25,719 bases of DNA from a virus, in the IMG/VR virus record IMGVR_UViG_3300047548_000232, positions 1-25,719 of that record. One strand, 5' to 3'. Positions 1,035 to 10,204 of the stretch are shown piece by piece. Both the position numbers and the translations under genes were made by a program. Position 1 is the first letter of the stretch, and every line of letters starts with the position of its first letter. Below the pieces are notes generated by a model. The model saw nothing but the letters and a program-made list of their open reading frames with translations. It had not been told where the DNA came from and made no database searches.

Positions 1035-2749
1035 TGGCCGGTTATTCTTTTTCGCAATTGATCGACTTCACCCGCACCTCTGCTGCAACGTATGTTGATA
1101 GCACCGGCAAGATCGTCACGACCCCTGCCAGCCGCAACCTGCTGACGTATACGCAGGAGTTTGATAATTCTACAGTGTGGGGTCCGTCAGGTGTGTCTGT
1201 CACCCCAAATGCGGCTATCTCGCCAGATGGGACGTTAACTGCGGACAAGCTGGTCGAAAGCAACACCAATGCGCTGCACACCCTTATTCGCACCATAACG
1301 ACCACGGCAGTCCCCTACACTTGGTCTTGCTACATCAAGGCAGCAGAGCGTACGTTTGCGTTGCTGTATCACGTTGAGAGCAATTCTGGCGTTTCAATCA
1401 ATCTTTTAACGGGCGCCACTGGAACACCGTCAGGCGTTGTTGCTCCAACGGCATTCACCGCGACAAGCGTTGGTAATGGTTGGTATCGCCTTAGCATGAC
1501 TGCAACCGCCACTGCGGCGTCTAATGGCTTCCGAATTTATACTGCTACCAGCCTTGCGGGTGGTGTCTATCAAGGCGACGGCACTTCTGGCATTTACATC
1601 TGGGGCGCACAGCTAGAGCAAGCCTCTGCTGCCACCACCTACACCCGCAACGTAGGCGGCGTATATCCCCCGCGCTTTGACTACGATCCTGTCACGCTGG
1701 CAGCTAAGGGGCTGCTGGTGGAAGAGCAGCGGACGAATTTGCTGTTGCGGTCGCAAGAATTTGATGTGTCTCCTGCGTGGAATATCGGCACAAACACTGT
1801 CACGGCAAACGTAATTGCATCACCTGACGGCAGCGCAAACGCAGATTTGTTTACCGCAACAGCGACTGGAATTGGTGCATTTTTAAGACAGCAAGCCACT
1901 TTGGCTGCCACGACAACATATACTGTATCAACCTTCTTTAAGAAGGGGACGGCAGATTTTGCGAACATCACCGTCTTTGATAATACGGATGGCAATCGTT
2001 ATTGGTTTAACCTCAACACTGGCGCTATTGCATCGACTGCGCTCGTTGGTGCAGGTTACACAAATGCTTCTGCTCGGATCGAAAACTACGGAAACGGTTG
2101 GTTCCGTTGCATTGTCACGTTTACCACAAAAAGCTCAACTGCATTTAGCCTGTTTGCCACATTTACCGACGCTGACGCTTCACTCACGGTCACCAATGGC
2201 AAGACGGGCTACATCTACGGCGCACAACTCGAAGCTGGCTCCTTCGCCACCTCCTACATCCCGACTGTCGCCTCTCAGGTGACGCGCTCGGCTGACCAAG
2301 CGTCGATCACGGGGCCGAACTTCTCGCAGTGGTATAATCCTGTGGAGGGAAGTTTTGTTGCTGAATATTCGCCATTGGCTGTTGATAACGATATTGCACT
2401 GTCCGTCTCTAGCGCGGCTGGTTATGGTAGCAGCATTTACCTTCCCGCTGACAGCTCATATCAGTTCATTGTAGTCAACAGCACCGTGCAAGCTCAGATT
2501 GATGCAGGCACCGTTACCGCTCTTGCGATAAATAAGACTGCGGCGGCCTACAAAGCCAATGACTTTGCGGCCTCTGTTGGTGGCGGTGTGGTTGTTACCG
2601 ACACTTCTGGAACTATTCCTACGGCTGATCGGGCTGTCATTGGTGGTTTGGAAGGCAACACCGCAAACCGGTTTAACGGCCACATCCGCTCGATCCGCTA
2701 TTATCCAACAAGACTTGGAAATTCACAATTGCAGGCCCTGACGGCATGA
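1034..2749 (+). CDS. Head-spike/fibre protein with duplicated carbohydrate-binding-like modules
   Basis: 571-aa, threonine/alanine-rich all-beta protein of the kind annotated as 'phage head spike fiber domain' proteins. An N-terminal FTRTSAATYVDSTGK segment (12-26) leads into module 1 (about 34-205), which opens with RNLLTYTQEFD, contains SPDGTLTADKL and NGWYRL, and ends with IYIWGAQLE. Module 2 (about 233-415) repeats the pattern with RTNLLLRSQEFD, SPDGSANADLF, NGWFRC and YIYGAQLE. Between them is PPRFDYDPVTLAAKGLLVEE, a common link in these fibres. The C-terminal 150 residues look LamG-like and end 'FNGHIRSIRYYPTRL', typical of sugar-binding domains. Likely role: surface-polysaccharide binding during adsorption. 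Adjacency to a spike-base gene suggests the fibre decorates the head, but a tail-fibre role is possible. Confidence 0.7.
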   Translation: MAGYSFSQLIDFTRTSAATYVDSTGKIVTTPASRNLLTYTQEFDNSTVWGPSGVSVTPNAAISPDGTLTADKLVESNTNALHTLIRTITTTAVPYTWSCYIKAAERTFALLYHVESNSGVSINLLTGATGTPSGVVAPTAFTATSVGNGWYRLSMTATATAASNGFRIYTATSLAGGVYQGDGTSGIYIWGAQLEQASAATTYTRNVGGVYPPRFDYDPVTLAAKGLLVEEQRTNLLLRSQEFDVSPAWNIGTNTVTANVIASPDGSANADLFTATATGIGAFLRQQATLAATTTYTVSTFFKKGTADFANITVFDNTDGNRYWFNLNTGAIASTALVGAGYTNASARIENYGNGWFRCIVTFTTKSSTAFSLFATFTDADASLTVTNGKTGYIYGAQLEAGSFATSYIPTVASQVTRSADQASITGPNFSQWYNPVEGSFVAEYSPLAVDNDIALSVSSAAGYGSSIYLPADSSYQFIVVNSTVQAQIDAGTVTALAINKTAAAYKANDFAASVGGGVVVTDTSGTIPTADRAVIGGLEGNTANRFNGHIRSIRYYPTRLGNSQLQALTA

Positions 2750-3225
2750 CGAAAGTATCAAGCATGAGTGCAACTGAGCGATTTTGGGCAAAGGTTGATA
2801 AAAGCCTTGGCGATCATCAGTGCTGGAATTGGCAAGCAGCAAAACTGCAAGCCGGTTACGGGCAGTTCAAAGCTTCCAGCTATATCATGCATTTGGCTCA
2901 CCGCTTTTCTTATGAATTGCACTTCGGGCCTGTTCCAGATGGAATGTATGTCTGCCACCGCTGCGACAATCCCTCATGCGTCAACCCAGCGCATTTGTTC
3001 GCCGGAGAGCCAAAGGACAATTCAGGCGATATGGTTGCCAAGGGCCGTAATCGCAGCGGCATCCTCCCCGGTGCATTAAATGGTAACGCTAGGCTATCTC
3101 TAGAACAAGTTAAGGCAATCCGTAACTCGAACGTTTCGTGCCGCAAGTTGGCCGCTGAATATGGCGTAGGGTCAAGCCAAATTCATCGCATCAAGCAAGG
3201 CCAAGCATGGAGTAAAGCAGCATGA
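2746..3225 (+). CDS. HNH endonuclease with C-terminal HTH
   Basis: 159-aa HNH nuclease. An N-terminal 'CWNWQ' and 'GYGQF' segment leads to 'AHRFSYELHFGPVP' and the HNH core VCHRCDNPSCVNPAHLF (about 69-85), with paired cysteines and the catalytic HNH histidines and asparagines, then 'DNSGDMVAKGR'. The C-terminal 45 residues (VKAIRNSN..CRKLAAEYGVGSSQIHRIKQG) form a helix-turn-helix DNA-binding motif. This is the layout of free-standing phage homing endonucleases. The start overlaps the fibre stop by ATGA; ATG 2764 is an alternative. Because it lies between the terminase genes, a packaging role like that of terminase-linked HNH proteins cannot be excluded, but the HTH tail favours homing. Confidence 0.85.
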   Translation: MTKVSSMSATERFWAKVDKSLGDHQCWNWQAAKLQAGYGQFKASSYIMHLAHRFSYELHFGPVPDGMYVCHRCDNPSCVNPAHLFAGEPKDNSGDMVAKGRNRSGILPGALNGNARLSLEQVKAIRNSNVSCRKLAAEYGVGSSQIHRIKQGQAWSKAA

Positions 3226-3659
3226 CCGATTATTATCTCAAAGCCGCCACCGAAGCCGACATGAACGCCGCGCTGATTGCTGCTGGACTGGCGTATGAAG
3301 GAACTGAGCAAGTCGCCATCGGCTTCAATTACGATGGCGAGTTTTACGAAAGCTATGCTGACATTCCCCATACCGAAACGGTGGATGAAGAAGGCAATGT
3401 CGATACCGAATACCCTGAAGGCATCGAAACGGTTTATGGCGAGCAAGCCATTCTCCTCCCCGCTCCCGGTGTCAGCCTCGATGTGATCGGCCCGATCAGC
3501 AAAGTCATTGGCTATGACGAGGACGGTAATCCTATCATTCAGGAATATCCTGAGTGGCACGTTAATTTGCGCGTTAGCTCGCTGACCGAAGAGCAACAGG
3601 AGATCATCGCTCCCATTGAAATTGTTCCGCCAGAGGTTCCATTCCGCGTCTGGGCGTAA
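3222..3659 (+). CDS. Hypothetical phage structural-accessory protein
   Basis: 145-aa acidic protein starting MTDYYLKAATEADMNAAL and ending with a conserved-looking 'WHVNLRV' strand and 'PPEVPFRVWA'. I recall similar proteins beside tail-fibre genes in alphaproteobacterial phages, always without a known function. Its start overlaps the HNH stop (ATGA), so it belongs to the same translational unit. It carries a 'LDVIGPISKVIGYDEDGNP' segment in the middle. It might be a fibre-associated or chaperone-like protein; that is only positional inference. Confidence 0.6.
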   Translation: MTDYYLKAATEADMNAALIAAGLAYEGTEQVAIGFNYDGEFYESYADIPHTETVDEEGNVDTEYPEGIETVYGEQAILLPAPGVSLDVIGPISKVIGYDEDGNPIIQEYPEWHVNLRVSSLTEEQQEIIAPIEIVPPEVPFRVWA

Positions 3660-3675
3660 CTAGCGCATCTAACGC

Positions 3676-5538
3676 ATGATCGAATTAGATCCTACGATCC
3701 GCGCAGAGGCTCTTAGCCAGATGGCTGGGGCCATGCGTCGTTTACAGCCGCCACCCCGTCTATCTGTTGCTGAATGGGCTGATGCAGAGCGCAGGCTTGA
3801 TTCGCAATCATCAGCGGAGCCGGGAAGATGGTATACAGCGCGAGCAGAGTATCAGCGTGGCATAATGGATGCTTGCTCTGATCCAGAAGTGCGCGAAGTT
3901 GTAGTAATGTGTGGCAGCCAGAGTGGCAAGAGCGAAGCACTCTTGAACACAATTGGCTATCACATGCACCATGATCCTTGCCCTATATTGGTAATGCAGC
4001 CAACTGTTGATATGGCGCAAGCCTTCTCCAAGGATCGTGTTAGTGCTGGTTTGATCCGTCCAACCCCAGCTCTTCGTGGGCTTGTTAATGATAGCAGGGC
4101 GAAAGATGCGAATAATACGACACTTCATAAAGTTTTTCCCGGCGGCGCTTTGTCTCTTGTTGGCGCTAACAGTCCATCTTCCCTTGCTTCTCGTCCTATT
4201 CGTATTGTCCTATGCGACGAAGTGGACAGATACCCTCCGTCAGCAGGTGAAGAGGGTGATCCGATTTCTCTGGCAAAGCGCCGAGCGGCTACATTCTGGA
4301 ACAGAAAGATAATCCAAGTCTCAACGCCAACCAATAGGGACGCGAGCAGGATTGAAGCCTCCTATAACGAAACAGATCAGCGCAAGTTTTACGTCCCCTG
4401 CCCACATTGCGATCATGAGCAATTGCTGCTCTGGGCGAATGTTCAGTGGCAAGACGACAATCCGAAGACGGCGCATTATCACTGCGGAGAATGTGGAGCT
4501 GCGTGGTCTGAAAGCGAACGCCATGCTGCCGTGTCAAAAGGCCAGTGGATAGCATCAAAGCCATTTAACGGTGCTGCTGGCTTCTGGTTTAATGCGCTTT
4601 ATTCGCCTTGGGTTGATCTGGTGGATACGGTGGAGGAGTTTATCTCTGCGCGCAAAGATCCTATGCGCCTTAAAACCTTCGTCAATACGATCCTTGCTGA
4701 GACATGGGAGGATCAGGGGGAAGGTATCGATGATTACGCCATAGCCCAGCGTAAAGAGGAGTATGATGGCATTCCAGAGGACGTTGTACTGCTGACTGCT
4801 GGCGTGGACGTTCAGGATGATCGCTTAGAGTGCGAAATTGTCGGCTGGGGCGCTGGTGAGGAGTCGTGGCAGATCGAATATCACGTTCTCTACGGAGACC
4901 CGTCTAGCCCTCAACTCTGGACGCAGCTCGATGAGATCCTGCTTGCCACCTATGAGCATCCTCTTGGTGAGCCTATGATAATTCGCTCAACCTGCATTGA
5001 CTCAGGCGGTCATCATACCCGTTCGGTATATAATTATGCCAAAACCCGTGCCGGTCATCGCGTGTTTGCTATCAAGGGCGTAGGCGGAGAGGGTAAACCT
5101 ATTGTTGGCCGCCCATCGAAGAACAATGTCGGCAAAGTTCCATTGTACGCTATTGGCGTAGATACCGCGAAAGAGCTTCACTATGCGCGCTTGCGTATGG
5201 AGGATGCTGGTCCCGGTTATTGTCATTTCCCAGCGAAGCGAGATGATGAGTACTTCCGTCAGCTTACTGCTGAAAAGCAAGTTATAAAATATCACAAAGG
5301 TTATCCAACGCGCACATGGATCAAAACACGCACTCGTAATGAGGCTTTAGACGTTCGTGTTTACGCTATTGCTGCCTTTCATATATTAAATGTGAATATG
5401 GATAGCATTGTACGGCGGTTTTATGCTAATGTGAATGACAGAAATATTCCTGCGAAGGATGTGCAACCTGTGAAGCCTCATCCCTTGATGCCAACCAAGC
5501 GGCCATCAAAGGGCGGTTTCGCTAATAATTGGCGATGA
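3676..5538 (+). CDS. Terminase large subunit, lambda GpA family
   Basis: 620-aa packaging motor: an ATPase that pumps DNA into the prohead and a nuclease that cuts it. Visible motifs: adenine-region 'LSVAEWADAERRL' (29-41), Walker A GSQSGKSE (80-87), Walker B with catalytic acid IRIVLCDEVD (175-184) and coupling motif VSTPTN (215-220). A zinc finger with C242-x2-C245 and C270-x2-C273 is characteristic of the GpA family. The C-terminal RNase H-like nuclease shows AGVDVQ (D378) and IDSGGHHT (D442). Length fits lambda gpA (about 640 aa). The ribosome site at 3676 is weak, and ATG 3721 is an alternative that would cut into the N-terminus. It lies 3.1 kb after the small subunit rather than adjacent to it. 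Confidence 0.95.
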   Translation: MIELDPTIRAEALSQMAGAMRRLQPPPRLSVAEWADAERRLDSQSSAEPGRWYTARAEYQRGIMDACSDPEVREVVVMCGSQSGKSEALLNTIGYHMHHDPCPILVMQPTVDMAQAFSKDRVSAGLIRPTPALRGLVNDSRAKDANNTTLHKVFPGGALSLVGANSPSSLASRPIRIVLCDEVDRYPPSAGEEGDPISLAKRRAATFWNRKIIQVSTPTNRDASRIEASYNETDQRKFYVPCPHCDHEQLLLWANVQWQDDNPKTAHYHCGECGAAWSESERHAAVSKGQWIASKPFNGAAGFWFNALYSPWVDLVDTVEEFISARKDPMRLKTFVNTILAETWEDQGEGIDDYAIAQRKEEYDGIPEDVVLLTAGVDVQDDRLECEIVGWGAGEESWQIEYHVLYGDPSSPQLWTQLDEILLATYEHPLGEPMIIRSTCIDSGGHHTRSVYNYAKTRAGHRVFAIKGVGGEGKPIVGRPSKNNVGKVPLYAIGVDTAKELHYARLRMEDAGPGYCHFPAKRDDEYFRQLTAEKQVIKYHKGYPTRTWIKTRTRNEALDVRVYAIAAFHILNVNMDSIVRRFYANVNDRNIPAKDVQPVKPHPLMPTKRPSKGGFANNWR

Positions 5539-5544
5539 TGGATA

Positions 5545-6132
5545 ATGGCAAACCTATTCGATAGCGCAAATGCCCTGACCACTGAGCCAAATGAGATCCA
5601 TGCTGGCTCACTTATTCAATGGAAGCGGGCAGATCTCTCTGAAGATTACCCACCTGCAAGCTATGATCTGATCTACACATCGCGTTTAAGCGGTGGTTTG
5701 GCTCGCGAATTTACAATCACTGCGACAAATGATGGTGGTGTATTCCTCGCATCAATGAGTGGGGCTGTCACTGGCGCACAAGTTGCTGGTGATTACTTCT
5801 GGCAGGCTGAGATCCAACGCAAGAGCGATAATGCGCGAGTGTTGGTTGCGACCGGGCAATGGAAGATACTGCCTGACCTTGAGCAGAGCGGTGCTGATCC
5901 TCGCACTCATGCGCAAATCATGCTGGGTAAGATCCAGTCTCTCCTTGAAGGCCGCGCTGACAAGGATGTATCAAGCTATAGCATCCAAGGCCGTTCGCTC
6001 GCGAAGATGGGCATCATGGACCTTTTGCAATGGCGTGATTACTACCGCAAAGAGGTTGCTCGCGAACAACGCGACGCTGACATTGCGGCTGGTAAACCAA
6101 GCAAGACCACTATGAAGGTGCGTTTCCTATGA
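5545..6132 (+). CDS. gpW-like head-tail connector with extra N-terminal domain
   Basis: 195-aa protein in the position of lambda gpW, between large terminase and portal. Residues about 118-178 (GKIQSLLEGRADKDV ... GRSLAKMGIMDLLQWRDYYR) are helical and resemble the small gpW joining fold. The first 110 residues are different: an all-beta, immunoglobulin-like domain (IQWKRADLSEDYPPASYDL ... GDYFWQAEI ... GQWKILP) similar in style to BppU N-terminal domains. Lambda gpW is only 68 aa, so this looks like a fusion. The stop overlaps the portal start (ATGA). The connector role is inferred from synteny and the C-terminal pattern; the N-terminal domain could be exposed on the virion. Confidence 0.6.
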   Translation: MANLFDSANALTTEPNEIHAGSLIQWKRADLSEDYPPASYDLIYTSRLSGGLAREFTITATNDGGVFLASMSGAVTGAQVAGDYFWQAEIQRKSDNARVLVATGQWKILPDLEQSGADPRTHAQIMLGKIQSLLEGRADKDVSSYSIQGRSLAKMGIMDLLQWRDYYRKEVAREQRDADIAAGKPSKTTMKVRFL

Positions 6133-7619
6133 GCCTATGGCGCGAGATACTGGGGTTGCCGCAGAAGGGCGATAGCGCACCTGTGCGTAAGCGTGGCTAC
6201 CATGCTGCTAATACTGGCCGGTTGTTTGCTGACTTTATGGCATCCAGCAAAAGCGCCGACAGCGAACTCAAGCCTGACTTGGTTATCATGCGTAATCGTG
6301 CGCGGGCCTTGGCGCGTGATGATGTTTATGTGAAGCGTTACCTTAGCCTGCTTGAGACGAATGTTATCGGTGACAAAGGTGTCACGTTGCAGGTCAAGGC
6401 GCGGAACACTGACAATAGCCTCGATGTCATTGGCAACAATATTGTTGAGAATGCCTTTTATCAATTTGGGCTTAAAGGCAATTGTACTGCTGATGGCCGC
6501 CTTTCTTGGATCGATCTACAGAAGCTGGTGACCTCGACGACAGGTCGCGATGGCGAGATCTTCATCCAGATCATTCGCAATCGTAGCTTCATTCACGGCA
6601 TCGCTTTCCATCCGGTTGAAGCTGACCAGATCGATGAGAACAAGAATGAGCGTCTTCGCAATGGCAACGAGATCCGTCTTGGCATTGAGGTAGACTCATA
6701 TCAGCGCCCGGTGGCTTATTGGGTGAAGCCCCGTCACCCCGGTGATTATGACTTCTCCTCCATCCAGCAGAACCCATCTGTTCGCGTACCGGCTAAAGAC
6801 ATCATCCATGTCTATCGGCAGGAGCGCCCCGGCCAGACCCGTGGTGAGCCTTGGATGGCCCCTGCGATGAGCCAGTTGAAGATGCTGAATGCTCACCGTG
6901 AGGCTGAATTGGTCGCAAGCCGCATGGCAGCATCCAAGATGGGCTTCTTCATCTCAGATAACGGCCAAGATGCGCCTGCTGATGATTACGACAACAATGT
7001 TCCGATCATCGATGCAGAACCCGGCACATTCCATCAGCTTCCTAACGGGGTTGATTTTAAGCCGTTCGATCCGACGCACCCTGCAACTGCCTTTGCAGAG
7101 TTCCAGAAGGGTATCTTGCGCGGCATCGCATCTGGCTTGGCTGTGTCCTACGCGAGCCTCTCAAATGATCTCGAAAGCACATCATACAGCTCGATCCGTC
7201 AGGGCGCACTAGAAGAGCGTGATGCTTATCGGATGCAGCAGCAGTTCATCCTCGATCACTTCATCATTCCTGCGTACTCTGCGTGGCTAATGCACGTTAT
7301 GGAGTTCGGTTATATTCCGATTCCCGCAACACGCTTTGACAAGTTCTTCAATGCCACCAGCTTCCGTCCCCGTGGATGGCAGTGGGTCGATCCTCAGCGC
7401 GAAATCAACGCTGCTGTCATGGCTATGCACAATGGCATTATGTCTATGCAGGATGTTTCCAACCAATACGGCAGGGACATTGAAGAGACATTTAGCCAGT
7501 GGCAGCGCGATAAGGAACTAGCTGACCAATTTGGTCTTGGCATCGCGTTCGAACCGTTCGGCGGTAATGATGCGTTCAAGGGCGAGCCTATGGTCGATGG
7601 AGACGCAGATGGGCAATAA
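6129..7619 (+). CDS. Phage portal protein, lambda gpB family
   Basis: 496-aa portal that forms the dodecameric DNA gate at the capsid vertex, binding the terminase and the neck. Recognisable stretches: an N-terminal RNRARALARDDVYVKRYLSL helix, 'NVIGDKGVTLQ', 'TTGRDGEIFIQIIRNRSF', 'DIIHVYRQERPGQTRGEPW', and a C-terminal 'ISGLAVSY..LSNDLESTSYSSIRQG'-like segment (here GIASGLAVSYASL), all typical of this family. Length is normal. The start is coupled to the upstream gene by ATGA. The 3' end overlaps the start of the protease-capsid gene by 11 nt. Confidence 0.95.
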   Translation: MSLWREILGLPQKGDSAPVRKRGYHAANTGRLFADFMASSKSADSELKPDLVIMRNRARALARDDVYVKRYLSLLETNVIGDKGVTLQVKARNTDNSLDVIGNNIVENAFYQFGLKGNCTADGRLSWIDLQKLVTSTTGRDGEIFIQIIRNRSFIHGIAFHPVEADQIDENKNERLRNGNEIRLGIEVDSYQRPVAYWVKPRHPGDYDFSSIQQNPSVRVPAKDIIHVYRQERPGQTRGEPWMAPAMSQLKMLNAHREAELVASRMAASKMGFFISDNGQDAPADDYDNNVPIIDAEPGTFHQLPNGVDFKPFDPTHPATAFAEFQKGILRGIASGLAVSYASLSNDLESTSYSSIRQGALEERDAYRMQQQFILDHFIIPAYSAWLMHVMEFGYIPIPATRFDKFFNATSFRPRGWQWVDPQREINAAVMAMHNGIMSMQDVSNQYGRDIEETFSQWQRDKELADQFGLGIAFEPFGGNDAFKGEPMVDGDADGQ

Positions 7620-10089
7620 GCCAACAGAGGGCATGAAGACTGAAGCGCAGCGTGGGCTTGACTGGCGCAGAGAGTTTGGCCGTGGTGGCACTGAAGTTGG
7701 GATCGCCCGTGCACGTGACATCGTAAACGACCGCGAACTCAGCGACGAGACCGTCAAGCGGATGTATAGCTTCTTCAGCCGCCATGAGGTTGATAAGCAG
7801 GCAGAGGGGTTTCGTCCCGGTGAAGATGGCTACCCGTCAAATGGTCGTATCGCATGGGCGCTCTGGGGCGGAGATGCGGGTTATTCTTGGTCCAAGGATA
7901 AGGTCAAAGCAATGGATGAAGAAAGATCATACAGAGACGAACGACCCTATCCAAATGAACATGCGGCAAGACTTCACGATCCTGATAAGTATACTGGCTT
8001 TCGGCGTGATAATGATGCTGGCGGTCCCGGTATTGATTTTATTTACGGTATTCTTGCTGATGGTGGCACTGAGTTACAAGCTATTCGATTTGATAAAGAC
8101 AGGTTTACTCCGTCTGAAGCGAAGGCTTGGTTGAATGAACATGACTTTAAGGCTATACTGTTCGAAGAAGCCACTGGAGAAAGAACCGTGGAAGAACTAG
8201 AAGAGCGCATGAAGGTAAAGGTTGAAGTCGAAGTTAAACTCGACGACGCCAGTGCTGTTGATATGCCTGACCCCGAAGGCGAACTGATTGTCCCTGAAGA
8301 CGTTTTGCTTGGTGAAGAAGACCGCAAGAAGATGGTCGACCTTGAGCATCGCGCACGGGATATTGACGCTCGCGCAATCGATGAGAAGAAGCGCACGGTT
8401 GATATTGCCGTCTCCTCTGAATTGGCTGTTGACCGTTCATTCGGTAAAGAAATTCTCGTTCATGAAGCTGGAGCCATTGATATGGCATTCATCGCATCTG
8501 GGCGCGCGCCGCTTTTGCTTGACCATGATATGGAAAAGCAGATCGGCGTAATTGAATCTGTGGAACTTTCTGGAGATAAGGTGCTTCGGGCCAAGGTCCG
8601 GTTCGGGCGCTCTGCTCTCGCACAGGAAGTATTCCAAGATGTTGTTGATGGTATCCGCTCGAATGTTTCGGTCGGCTATCGCGTCAACAAAATGGAGCGT
8701 TCACCAATGAATAAGGACGAGTACCTTGTCCGTTCGTGGTCGCCCCTTGAGGTATCCGTCGTTTCGATCCCTGCTGACCCGTCAGTTGGCGTGGGCCGTA
8801 GCGCGGCTGCTCTCGAACCCCAACCTAAAGTTGAACCATCCATTAAAAAGGACACTATCATGAGTGAAGTGAATCTGGATGCGGTTCGGGCTGAAGCTGC
8901 TGAAGCTGCCGCCCGTAATGCTGCCGCAATTATCGACCTCGGCGCGCGTCACAACAAGCGTGACCTCGCTGATGCCGCCATCAAGTCTGGCAAGAGCATT
9001 GAACAGTTCCGTGGTGAACTGCTCGAAGTGATCGGCAATGACAAGCCGCTCGACAACGGCAACATCGGCCTGAGCAAGAAGGAAGTTCGCAACTTCTCGA
9101 TTGTCCGCGCCATCGCTGCCATGTCGAACCCCGGTGATCGCCGTCTGCGTGAAGCTGCTGCTTTCGAATTTGAAGCATCAGAAGCCGCTGCACAGCGTTA
9201 TGGCCGTTCGGCTCAGGGCATCATGATCCCCGTCGACGTTCTGGGCGTCTGGAAGCAGCGCGACCTGAACACCTCGGACGACAACGAATTGGTTGCTACC
9301 AACCTGTTGGCTGGTGACTTCATCGACGTTCTCCGTAACTCGGCTTCGGTCATGCAGGCTGGTGCGCGTATGCTGCCGGGTCTGGTTGGCAACGTCGCCA
9401 TTCCGAAGAAGACTGCTGCTTCGGCTGGTGGTTGGATCAGCACTGAAGGTGGCGCGGCATCTGAGTCCGAGCCGACCTTTGGCACGGTGAGCCTGACCCC
9501 GAAGACTGTTGGTGCATTCACCGACATGACTCGCCAGCTCATCCTCCAGTCGACGCCTTCGGTTGAAGCTCTGGTCCGTGACGATCTCACGCAGGCTTTG
9601 GCTCTGGCTATCGACAAGGGCGGTCTGGAAGGCACGGGCCTCAGCGGTCAGCCCACGGGCATCCTCAGCACGGTTGGCGTCAATAAGCCGACCAACTTCG
9701 CTGCTGCGGTTCCGACCTTTGCTGAAATGGTTGCGCTGGAAACGGCTGTTGCCGAAGACAACGCTCTCATGGGCAACCTCGCCTACATCACCGATGCGGC
9801 CACTTACGGCGGTCTGAAGACCAAAGCTAAGGACGCTGGCTCGGGTATGTTCGTGATCGAAAACGGTCAGGCCAACGGCTACAACGTCATCCGCTCGCAG
9901 CAATGCACGGCTGGGAATGTTTACTTCGGTAACTTCTCAGACCTGCTGATCGGCATGTGGTCCGGCCTCGATCTCACGGTCGATCCTTACACCTCGTCAA
10001 ACACCGGCACGGTGCGCGTTGTCGCTCTCCAGACGGTTGACGTTGCTGTTCGTCACGCTGTGTCGTTCGCGTACAACAACGACGGCTAA
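7609..10089 (+). CDS. Prohead protease-major capsid protein fusion (HK97 fold)
   Basis: 826-aa polyprotein joining maturation protease and capsid subunit with no stop between. Start 7609 has GGAG 6-7 nt upstream; 7597 and 7531 are in-frame alternatives inside the portal gene. Residues 15-95 (GLDWRREFGRGGTEVGIARA ... GRIAWALWGGDAG) and about 110-188 (NEHAARLHDPDKYTGFRRD ... SEAKAWLNEHDFKAILFE, XkdF-like) are accessory domains often found ahead of such proteases. The protease spans about 245-395, with histidine in LLLDHDM (H306) and nucleophile serine in SNVSVGYRV (S354), followed by 'SPLEVSVVSIPADP'. From M418 a helical scaffold-like delta region leads to the HK97 capsid domain (IMIPVDVLG ... 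FTDMTRQLILQS ... LEGTGLSGQPTGIL). A strong internal start (8860) may supply most of the capsid protein. Confidence 0.93.
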   Translation: MGNKPTEGMKTEAQRGLDWRREFGRGGTEVGIARARDIVNDRELSDETVKRMYSFFSRHEVDKQAEGFRPGEDGYPSNGRIAWALWGGDAGYSWSKDKVKAMDEERSYRDERPYPNEHAARLHDPDKYTGFRRDNDAGGPGIDFIYGILADGGTELQAIRFDKDRFTPSEAKAWLNEHDFKAILFEEATGERTVEELEERMKVKVEVEVKLDDASAVDMPDPEGELIVPEDVLLGEEDRKKMVDLEHRARDIDARAIDEKKRTVDIAVSSELAVDRSFGKEILVHEAGAIDMAFIASGRAPLLLDHDMEKQIGVIESVELSGDKVLRAKVRFGRSALAQEVFQDVVDGIRSNVSVGYRVNKMERSPMNKDEYLVRSWSPLEVSVVSIPADPSVGVGRSAAALEPQPKVEPSIKKDTIMSEVNLDAVRAEAAEAAARNAAAIIDLGARHNKRDLADAAIKSGKSIEQFRGELLEVIGNDKPLDNGNIGLSKKEVRNFSIVRAIAAMSNPGDRRLREAAAFEFEASEAAAQRYGRSAQGIMIPVDVLGVWKQRDLNTSDDNELVATNLLAGDFIDVLRNSASVMQAGARMLPGLVGNVAIPKKTAASAGGWISTEGGAASESEPTFGTVSLTPKTVGAFTDMTRQLILQSTPSVEALVRDDLTQALALAIDKGGLEGTGLSGQPTGILSTVGVNKPTNFAAAVPTFAEMVALETAVAEDNALMGNLAYITDAATYGGLKTKAKDAGSGMFVIENGQANGYNVIRSQQCTAGNVYFGNFSDLLIGMWSGLDLTVDPYTSSNTGTVRVVALQTVDVAVRHAVSFAYNNDG
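8848..8852 (+). promoter_or_regulatory. Internal ribosome binding site for the capsid protein
   Basis: AAGGA inside the protease-capsid gene, 7 nt before an in-frame ATG (8860) that begins the capsid part exactly at the domain border. Confidence 0.6.
8860..10089 (+). CDS. Major capsid protein from internal start within the protease fusion
   Basis: Predicted separate 409-aa translation product, in frame with the 3' part of the fusion. ATG 8860 (MSEVNLDAVRAEAAEAAARN) is preceded by AAGGA at 8848-8852 with a 7-nt spacer, a better site than the one at the start of the fusion. The length and content match a stand-alone HK97-type capsid protein with its N-terminal delta (scaffold) domain. This gives a simple means to make many capsid subunits per protease, as with lambda's nested C/Nu3 pair. 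The protein family is clear; use of the internal start is inferred. Confidence 0.65.
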   Translation: MSEVNLDAVRAEAAEAAARNAAAIIDLGARHNKRDLADAAIKSGKSIEQFRGELLEVIGNDKPLDNGNIGLSKKEVRNFSIVRAIAAMSNPGDRRLREAAAFEFEASEAAAQRYGRSAQGIMIPVDVLGVWKQRDLNTSDDNELVATNLLAGDFIDVLRNSASVMQAGARMLPGLVGNVAIPKKTAASAGGWISTEGGAASESEPTFGTVSLTPKTVGAFTDMTRQLILQSTPSVEALVRDDLTQALALAIDKGGLEGTGLSGQPTGILSTVGVNKPTNFAAAVPTFAEMVALETAVAEDNALMGNLAYITDAATYGGLKTKAKDAGSGMFVIENGQANGYNVIRSQQCTAGNVYFGNFSDLLIGMWSGLDLTVDPYTSSNTGTVRVVALQTVDVAVRHAVSFAYNNDG

Positions 10090-10103
10090 GTCTAGTCGGG
10101 TAC

Positions 10104-10139
10104 AGGGGGTGGAGTTGGGCACTAATCCCGCCACCCCCT
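10104..10139 (+). terminator. Strong hairpin after the capsid gene (attenuator-like)
   Basis: AGGGGGTGG (10104-10112) pairs perfectly with CCACCCCCT (10131-10139), a 9-bp GC-rich stem with a possible inner GGG/CCC pairing. It lies 15 nt after the capsid stop. No T tract follows, so it may be a partial terminator or a 3'-end stabiliser separating abundant capsid mRNA from the downstream genes rather than a full stop. Confidence 0.55.
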
Positions 10140-10204
10140 AAGCCTTGGAGGTTTAAGTGGTACTTTCTACTAGCTCATGGACGAGCAAGGAATCGGAGAC
10201 TGTC

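Follow-up and report, generated by a model that had tools for sequence, protein, structure and literature searches.

A probable in-frame internal start conserved at the protease-capsid border of a fused phage head gene

The window analyzed here, the whole 25,719-nt stretch of viral DNA from IMG/VR record IMGVR_UViG_3300047548_000232, carries on its plus strand an open frame (7609-10089) of 826 codons with zero internal stops, whose start overlaps the 3' end of the portal gene (6129-7619). The encoded protein comprises, in order, N-terminal extensions, a prohead protease, a linker, a delta domain and a capsid protein with the HK97 fold. At the border between the protease and capsid halves, an AAGGA motif is followed after a gap of 7 nt by an in-frame ATG. 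The features of the locus are as follows.

7599..7602, plus strand: Shine-Dalgarno (SD)-like GGAG of the long form (duplex energy -6.4 at ATG 7609)
7609..10089, plus strand: fused gene, long product of 826 aa, 89.5 kDa
7609..7926, plus strand: helical GRGGT/ALWGGDAG domain, residues 1-106 (PHROG_2859, AlphaFold models)
7960..8166, plus strand: BRX-like domain, residues ~118-186 (Pfam PF08381, Foldseek)
8374..8808, plus strand: prohead protease domain (Peptidase_S78, assemblin-like), residues ~256-400 (PF04586, TIGR01543 partial)
8797..8868, plus strand: disordered linker, residues 397-420 (AlphaFold pLDDT < 50; lowest synonymous change in the gene)
8848..8852, plus strand: AAGGA, internal SD, kept in relatives
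8853..8866, plus strand: possible mini-hairpin CACT-AUCAUG-AGTG with the start codon in the loop (4-bp stem, close clade)
8860..8862, plus strand: internal ATG, codon 418 (Met418), predicted short-form start (conservation in relatives)
8860..10089, plus strand: predicted short product of 409 aa, 42.8 kDa, delta-domain capsid precursor (TIGR01554, Phage_capsid)
8872..9201, plus strand: helical delta/scaffold region, residues ~422-531 (AlphaFold helices)
9280..10086, plus strand: mature HK97-fold capsid protein, residues ~558-826 (PDB 8gta, HK97 prohead fold matches)

In the 826-aa protein, Pfam assigns residues 288-395 to Peptidase_S78 and residues 568-821 to Phage_capsid. The protease is recognized by PF04586 (34.0 bits against a cutoff of 21), and its His306 and Ser354, which form invariant columns in alignments A1 and A2, are probably catalytic, as in the family. 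TIGR01543, the equivalog model for the HK97 family prohead protease, scored 43.3 bits, under its threshold of 59 bits, and by this score the window protease is a relative of that group below the equivalog level. The exception model for prohead protease/MCP fusions, NF045541, matched residues 257-532 only, with 152 bits where 525 are needed; judged by this profile, the window protein shares the architecture and belongs to a different family. NF045540, the model for ClpP-like fusions, was absent from the protein's NCBIfam matches. PHROG_617 (major head protein, fused) covered residues 250-823 on profile positions 13-621 of 626, with 502 bits. The R4C capsid (PDB 8gta) aligns with residues 558-819 (E = 5e-78), and the capsid fold matches 8fqk (Z = 18.3, 249 aligned, 4.0 Å) as well as HK97 proheads, in a fold comparison of the full model that tests mainly residues 495-826 and does not reach the protease fold. 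In the AlphaFold model, the linker connects the protease sheet to the first helix (423-447) of the delta domain, and by analogy with HK97 the delta/scaffold region would be expected to be removed at maturation. Taken alone, the predicted short product scored 103.1 bits with TIGR01554 (cutoff 27.5) and 128.8 bits with PF05065 (cutoff 24.2), and thus has both the profile matches and the fold of an HK97-type major capsid protein. Coordinates, Pfam domains and the AlphaFold linker confirm what an earlier, sequence-only reading of the window had claimed, that protease and capsid share one unbroken 826-aa frame with AAGGA and ATG at their border.

The same reading had proposed two accessory domains upstream of the protease. 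The first, the GRGGT/ALWGGDAG domain, is real and is matched by PHROG_2859 over residues ~1-105. On its own, this domain matches other proteins in tblastn, from many Vibrio phages, Synechococcus phage S-CBS4 and archaeal virus HRTV-4; a fold search of the PDB with residues 1-105 gave no match, which we do not take to mean a new fold. The second had been labeled XkdF-like, a name that found no support, as the XkdF/S78_2 Pfam models gave zero matches at E <= 1 across residues 107-194. Residues ~118-186 match PF08381 (BRX) with 28.4 bits against a cutoff of 24.5, and Foldseek aligned them with the BRX fold of 6l0v at a probability of 1.00 over 50 columns and 2.3 Å, yet with an E value of 0.075. 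From profile and predicted fold, this domain looks BRX-like rather than XkdF-like, a match to a plant-type Pfam family within a phage protease-capsid protein.

In the window itself, the internal start is unexceptional. ATG 8860 falls within the interdomain linker, where pLDDT is below 50, and its anti-SD duplex energy is -5.3 kcal/mol versus -6.4 at the frame's own start at 7609, so that the short-form and long-form starts are of similar predicted strength. Among the 21 in-frame ATGs of the gene, 7609 and five internal ones (codons 102, 292, 367, 588 and 747; -5.6 to -6.3) outscore 8860, and the signal in this one sequence is weak evidence of use. The SD is moderate, and the start had been called strong too readily.

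Comparison with more than 200 related phages and several unrelated ones gives the site its weight. The main set comprised 161 distinct fused relatives, drawn from scans of viral contigs and from phage records; among the peptide patterns used in the first scan, KKDTIMSE contains the start, and a second scan by a protease motif without the start had the same outcome. An in-frame linker ATG was present in 161 of 161, and an SD energy of -4.5 or lower in 134 of 161, compared with 18% of equal-length control windows from the same ORFs; taking the ATG with the best SD in each linker inflates the per-sequence score, and the control windows were given identical freedom. When lineages were clustered at 50% identity, ATG with SD occurred in 24 of 34 (14.6% of control windows; nominal binomial P = 3e-13), and at 40% identity in 13 of 18 (11.8% of control windows; P = 4e-9), with the P values assuming an independence of lineages that is incomplete. 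The column of Met418 is 98% Met; no other Met column of the alignment exceeds 95%, and the runner-up reaches 83%. Spacing of the SD is canonical: of 42 lineage representatives, 26 have its GG core at -10 and 8 at -13. In a small number of lineages the SD falls in another reading frame and encodes a different peptide, such as RGAE in VP882. Across 33 additional, more distant members, a linker ATG was again found in 33 of 33, although L193 and L214 have theirs only close to the delta helix. At the junction site, L193 has no ATG and instead has a GTG behind caggaggccgaa; a GTG also occurs in L207, where the SD is of moderate strength. Across the sequences compared, conservation of the internal site is far above chance.

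Ten of the 34 lineages at 50% identity lack ATG with SD at the threshold, some having a weaker SD or a site beyond the 45-codon window. The Synechococcus phages S-CBS1, S-CBS3 and S-LBS1 and the group L144-L154 keep the ATG and have no SD; several other annotated genes of the cyanophages S-CBS1/3 and S-LBS1 are also SD-less, though not all. Inspection of the border in L307 and L279 for a start signal found no convincing site. On this comparison, the rule of an internal start is strong and perhaps not universal.

A methionine could also be kept for reasons of protein function, an explanation that we disfavor because Lys414 in the SD is restricted to AAG, L193 has GTG in place of the ATG, and the flanks vary. 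Residues around Met418 vary widely, and upstream of it only Lys at -4 and Glu at -3, which together read AAGGAR, are strongly kept. Lys414, the SD codon, is AAG only, in 106 sequences, and AAG makes up 54.5% of Lys codons overall. Normalized synonymous change, with an expectation corrected for pair divergence and residue type, is 0.16 at codon 414 versus 1.68 at the adjacent Lys413. Of 577 ten-codon synonymous windows, the 12 with the least change all begin at residues 397-408, at the junction. An earlier scan of synonymous rates was open to bias, in that variable positions retain only close pairs; the pair- and residue-specific repetition agrees with it. Nucleotide-level conservation of the site is thus observed directly, and by this measure selection at the junction acts on nucleotides.

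Synonymous constraint also reaches about 50 nt 5' of the internal SD (8797-8847, codons 397-413), peaking at codons 408-409 (GTTGAA), and reappears at codons 425 and 429, near bases that pair with 8797-8847 in the predicted fold of the window. RNA near the internal start is less structured than in the rest of the ORFs; synonymous resampling of upstream codons in each sequence was only moderately informative. A 4-bp hairpin at the start codon was found in 18 of 49 distinct windows from relatives of at least 60% identity, a count that relatedness inflates (shuffles, 3.5 +/- 1.7). Its stems use differing complementary triplets (AGA/TCT, GGA/TCC, AGT/ACT, AGC/GCT, GTC/GAC), with CACT/AGTG in the window. 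As a family-wide trait the mini-hairpin was rejected (10 of 96 versus 6.9 expected), and we retain it for the close clade, where it lends some support to an RNA element at the start.

Relatives in which protease and capsid are separate genes point to how the fusion arose. With the protease of one of these, Dulem virus 34, as the query, 33 split and 23 fused distinct contigs were recovered, assigned to the two classes from the length of their ORFs; the 33 include some truncated contigs that may be fused. The separate capsid ORF of Dulem virus 34, like that of most split contigs, starts behind an SD of about -9.5 to -12. Those capsid starts lie within ~20 nt of the protease stop and ~30 codons past VGxGR, which is the place of the internal ATG in the fused members, and the two sites are equivalent. 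In the simplest and most likely history, neighboring protease and capsid genes lost the stop codon that separated them, and the ribosome-binding site and start of the capsid gene were retained. Two contigs call for comment. In L086 (CRP-823; 1183-4111), the annotation divides the fused gene into two overlapping CDS with a break in the N-terminal part, either a natural split or a sequencing error. A contig that had been binned into a Euryarchaeota MAG (L228) carries a fused gene with 62% identity and is probably mis-binned phage DNA.

Taken together, the conserved codon, its SD, the nucleotide constraint, the split relatives and the recurrence described below strongly support the suggestion made from the sequence alone, that an internal start yields a free capsid subunit beside the fusion. 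It is very probable that the gene encodes two products in frame, one nested in the other: an 826-aa fusion and, through the internal start, a 409-aa capsid precursor. Ribosomes initiating at 7609 would make the protease-delta-capsid fusion, and ribosomes initiating at 8860 on the same message would make a delta-capsid precursor equivalent to HK97 gp5. Both forms could then co-assemble through their identical delta and capsid domains. In HK97, the delta domain faces inward in the prohead. Because the protease lies N-terminal to that domain, co-assembly would put it inside, and targeting of the protease by its own capsid domain would follow from the HK97 topology. Once carried into the prohead, the protease would cut at the border between delta and mature regions, converting both forms to one mature subunit. 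We infer initiation at 8860, co-assembly, the ratio of products and the order of cleavage from these comparisons.

The foremost alternative is that the fusion is the sole product, a polyprotein from which the protease frees all capsid protein, the Met and SD being there by accident or as elements of a cleavage site. In its favor, cleavage within the linkers of prohead proteins is common. In Dinoroseobacter phage vB_DshS-R4C, the virion capsid protein is assigned to the fused gene vBDshSR4C_006 and only its mature region was modeled (PMC10276861), for which proteolysis alone could suffice. A polyprotein nevertheless leaves unexplained the AAG-only Lys414, the canonical SD spacing with varying peptides, the GTG replacement in L193 and the match to the capsid start of the split relatives. 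Space within the prohead also bears on it. The HK97 prohead has an inner radius of 20-23 nm and 60 protease copies. With this radius and the T=7 geometry of R4C, we roughly estimate that the N-terminal parts would fill 60-91% of the interior if all 415 subunits were long, and 21-32% with 60 long copies. On this rough estimate, because an all-long prohead would be so filled, a majority of short subunits, as the sequence-only reading had proposed with its few fused and many free copies, is physically favored, unless cleavage precedes closure, which would also spare the polyprotein this difficulty. We consider a polyprotein unlikely. The long message could also be processed, or capsid protein could come from proteolysis of the fusion, with the internal site adding little.

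The short form might instead come from its own internal transcript rather than from internal initiation on the long message. Such a transcript would separate the control of capsid and protease, and synonymous constraint that extends ~50 nt 5' of the SD is in keeping with it. A scan of 8300-10200 for sigma-70-like promoters, the one type sought, found zero sites on the plus strand and one match on the minus strand, where 0.7 are expected by chance, and we regard this origin as very unlikely. Least likely of all is that the internal start is an unused fossil of the gene fusion, as the common start in split relatives and the weak or absent SD of some lineages might suggest, since its retention at the deepest sampled divergences (about 20-40% identity) and the ongoing synonymous constraint are unexpected without use.

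A dual-product gene of this kind would have counterparts among known assembly systems. Like herpesvirus UL26/UL26.5, the window gene has an assemblin-class protease and a predicted shorter in-frame product, whereas UL26.5 has a separate internal transcript and encodes the scaffold only, the capsid protein being separate. In phage lambda, Nu3 is made from an internal start. The C/Nu3 pair consists of a protease-scaffold gene and an overlapping in-frame scaffold gene (Shaw and Murialdo 1980, as cited in PMC8508860). As in lambda C/Nu3, a single frame in the window has the protease ahead of an assembly domain, a conserved internal start with SD lies at the border, and the shorter in-frame product would lack the protease. 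Unlike in lambda, where the short product is scaffold only and capsid protein E has a separate gene, the short product of the window would be the capsid precursor itself, containing the capsid domain; the proteases also differ in class (S78/assemblin-like versus ClpP-like in lambda C). Domain order is the same in HK97 gp4 (protease) and gp5 (delta and capsid), as would be the products if the short form is made, but gp4 and gp5 are two genes and the window has one, with a nested start.

The fusion itself is already known. Protease-capsid fusions have been described in Arthrobacter, Rhodobacter and Pseudomonas phages (PMC5513430, PMC8601537, PMC12760985, PMC8508860), and are covered by NCBIfam NF045541 (prohead protease) and NF045540 (ClpP-like) and by PHROG_617 and PHROG_4523; SEA-PHAGES records bear the label 'major capsid and protease fusion protein'. 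Like the window, these families and MD8 gp5 have protease, scaffold and capsid in one gene. What may be new here is recognition of the internal start. Of the inspected records in the S78 fusion family, none has a second CDS annotated at that site; the consulted passages of these papers do not mention an internal start, and searches of a mostly open-access literature turned up no account of one in such fusions, though it may have been recognized earlier. R4C (L099) belongs to the same fused family as the window, with a capsid about 39-41% identical and a shorter N-terminal part; its capsid has been solved (T=7, 415 copies; PDB 8GTA, PMC10276861). The text of that paper contains neither 'protease' nor 'cleav', though vBDshSR4C_006 is a protease-capsid fusion.

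Fusions without close sequence similarity to the main family have the same arrangement. The tiny actinophages RRH1, GMA5, BlueFeather and KylieMac, missed by the main searches, carry an ATG with SD at the border, which in GMA5 is aggaggacaccacaATG. In the ClpP-like fusions of Pseudomonas phages F10 and MD8, Met220 with an SD (-5.4 to -8.3) was found in 13 of 13 representatives with at least 60% identity to F10. Because the proteases of these fusion families differ, the nested design seems to have more than one origin, unless the ClpP-like case descends, as it may, from a nesting like that of lambda C/Nu3. In L185 (DCP80), a second internal ATG with SD (1889-1891, codon 321) lies just before the mature capsid region, in addition to that at codon 180, and possibly starts a third product.

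It is possible, if somewhat short of probable, that protease-capsid fusions of tailed phages, whether S78 proteobacterial, S78-like actinophage or ClpP-like lambdoid, have arisen repeatedly and are generally unannotated dual-product genes, in which a conserved initiation element at the junction (an SD, joined in some clades by a start-codon hairpin that covaries) determines, and may also regulate, the number of protease copies per prohead. How the right small number of proteases is loaded into each prohead is an old question of assembly. If the dual-product reading is true, one gene would answer it, with a shared capsid domain for co-assembly and two starts to set the ratio. The capsid precursors of many sequenced phages would then be mis-annotated, with a wrong N-terminus and the protease counted as capsid, which would touch structural work such as that on R4C, capsid phylogenies and engineering.
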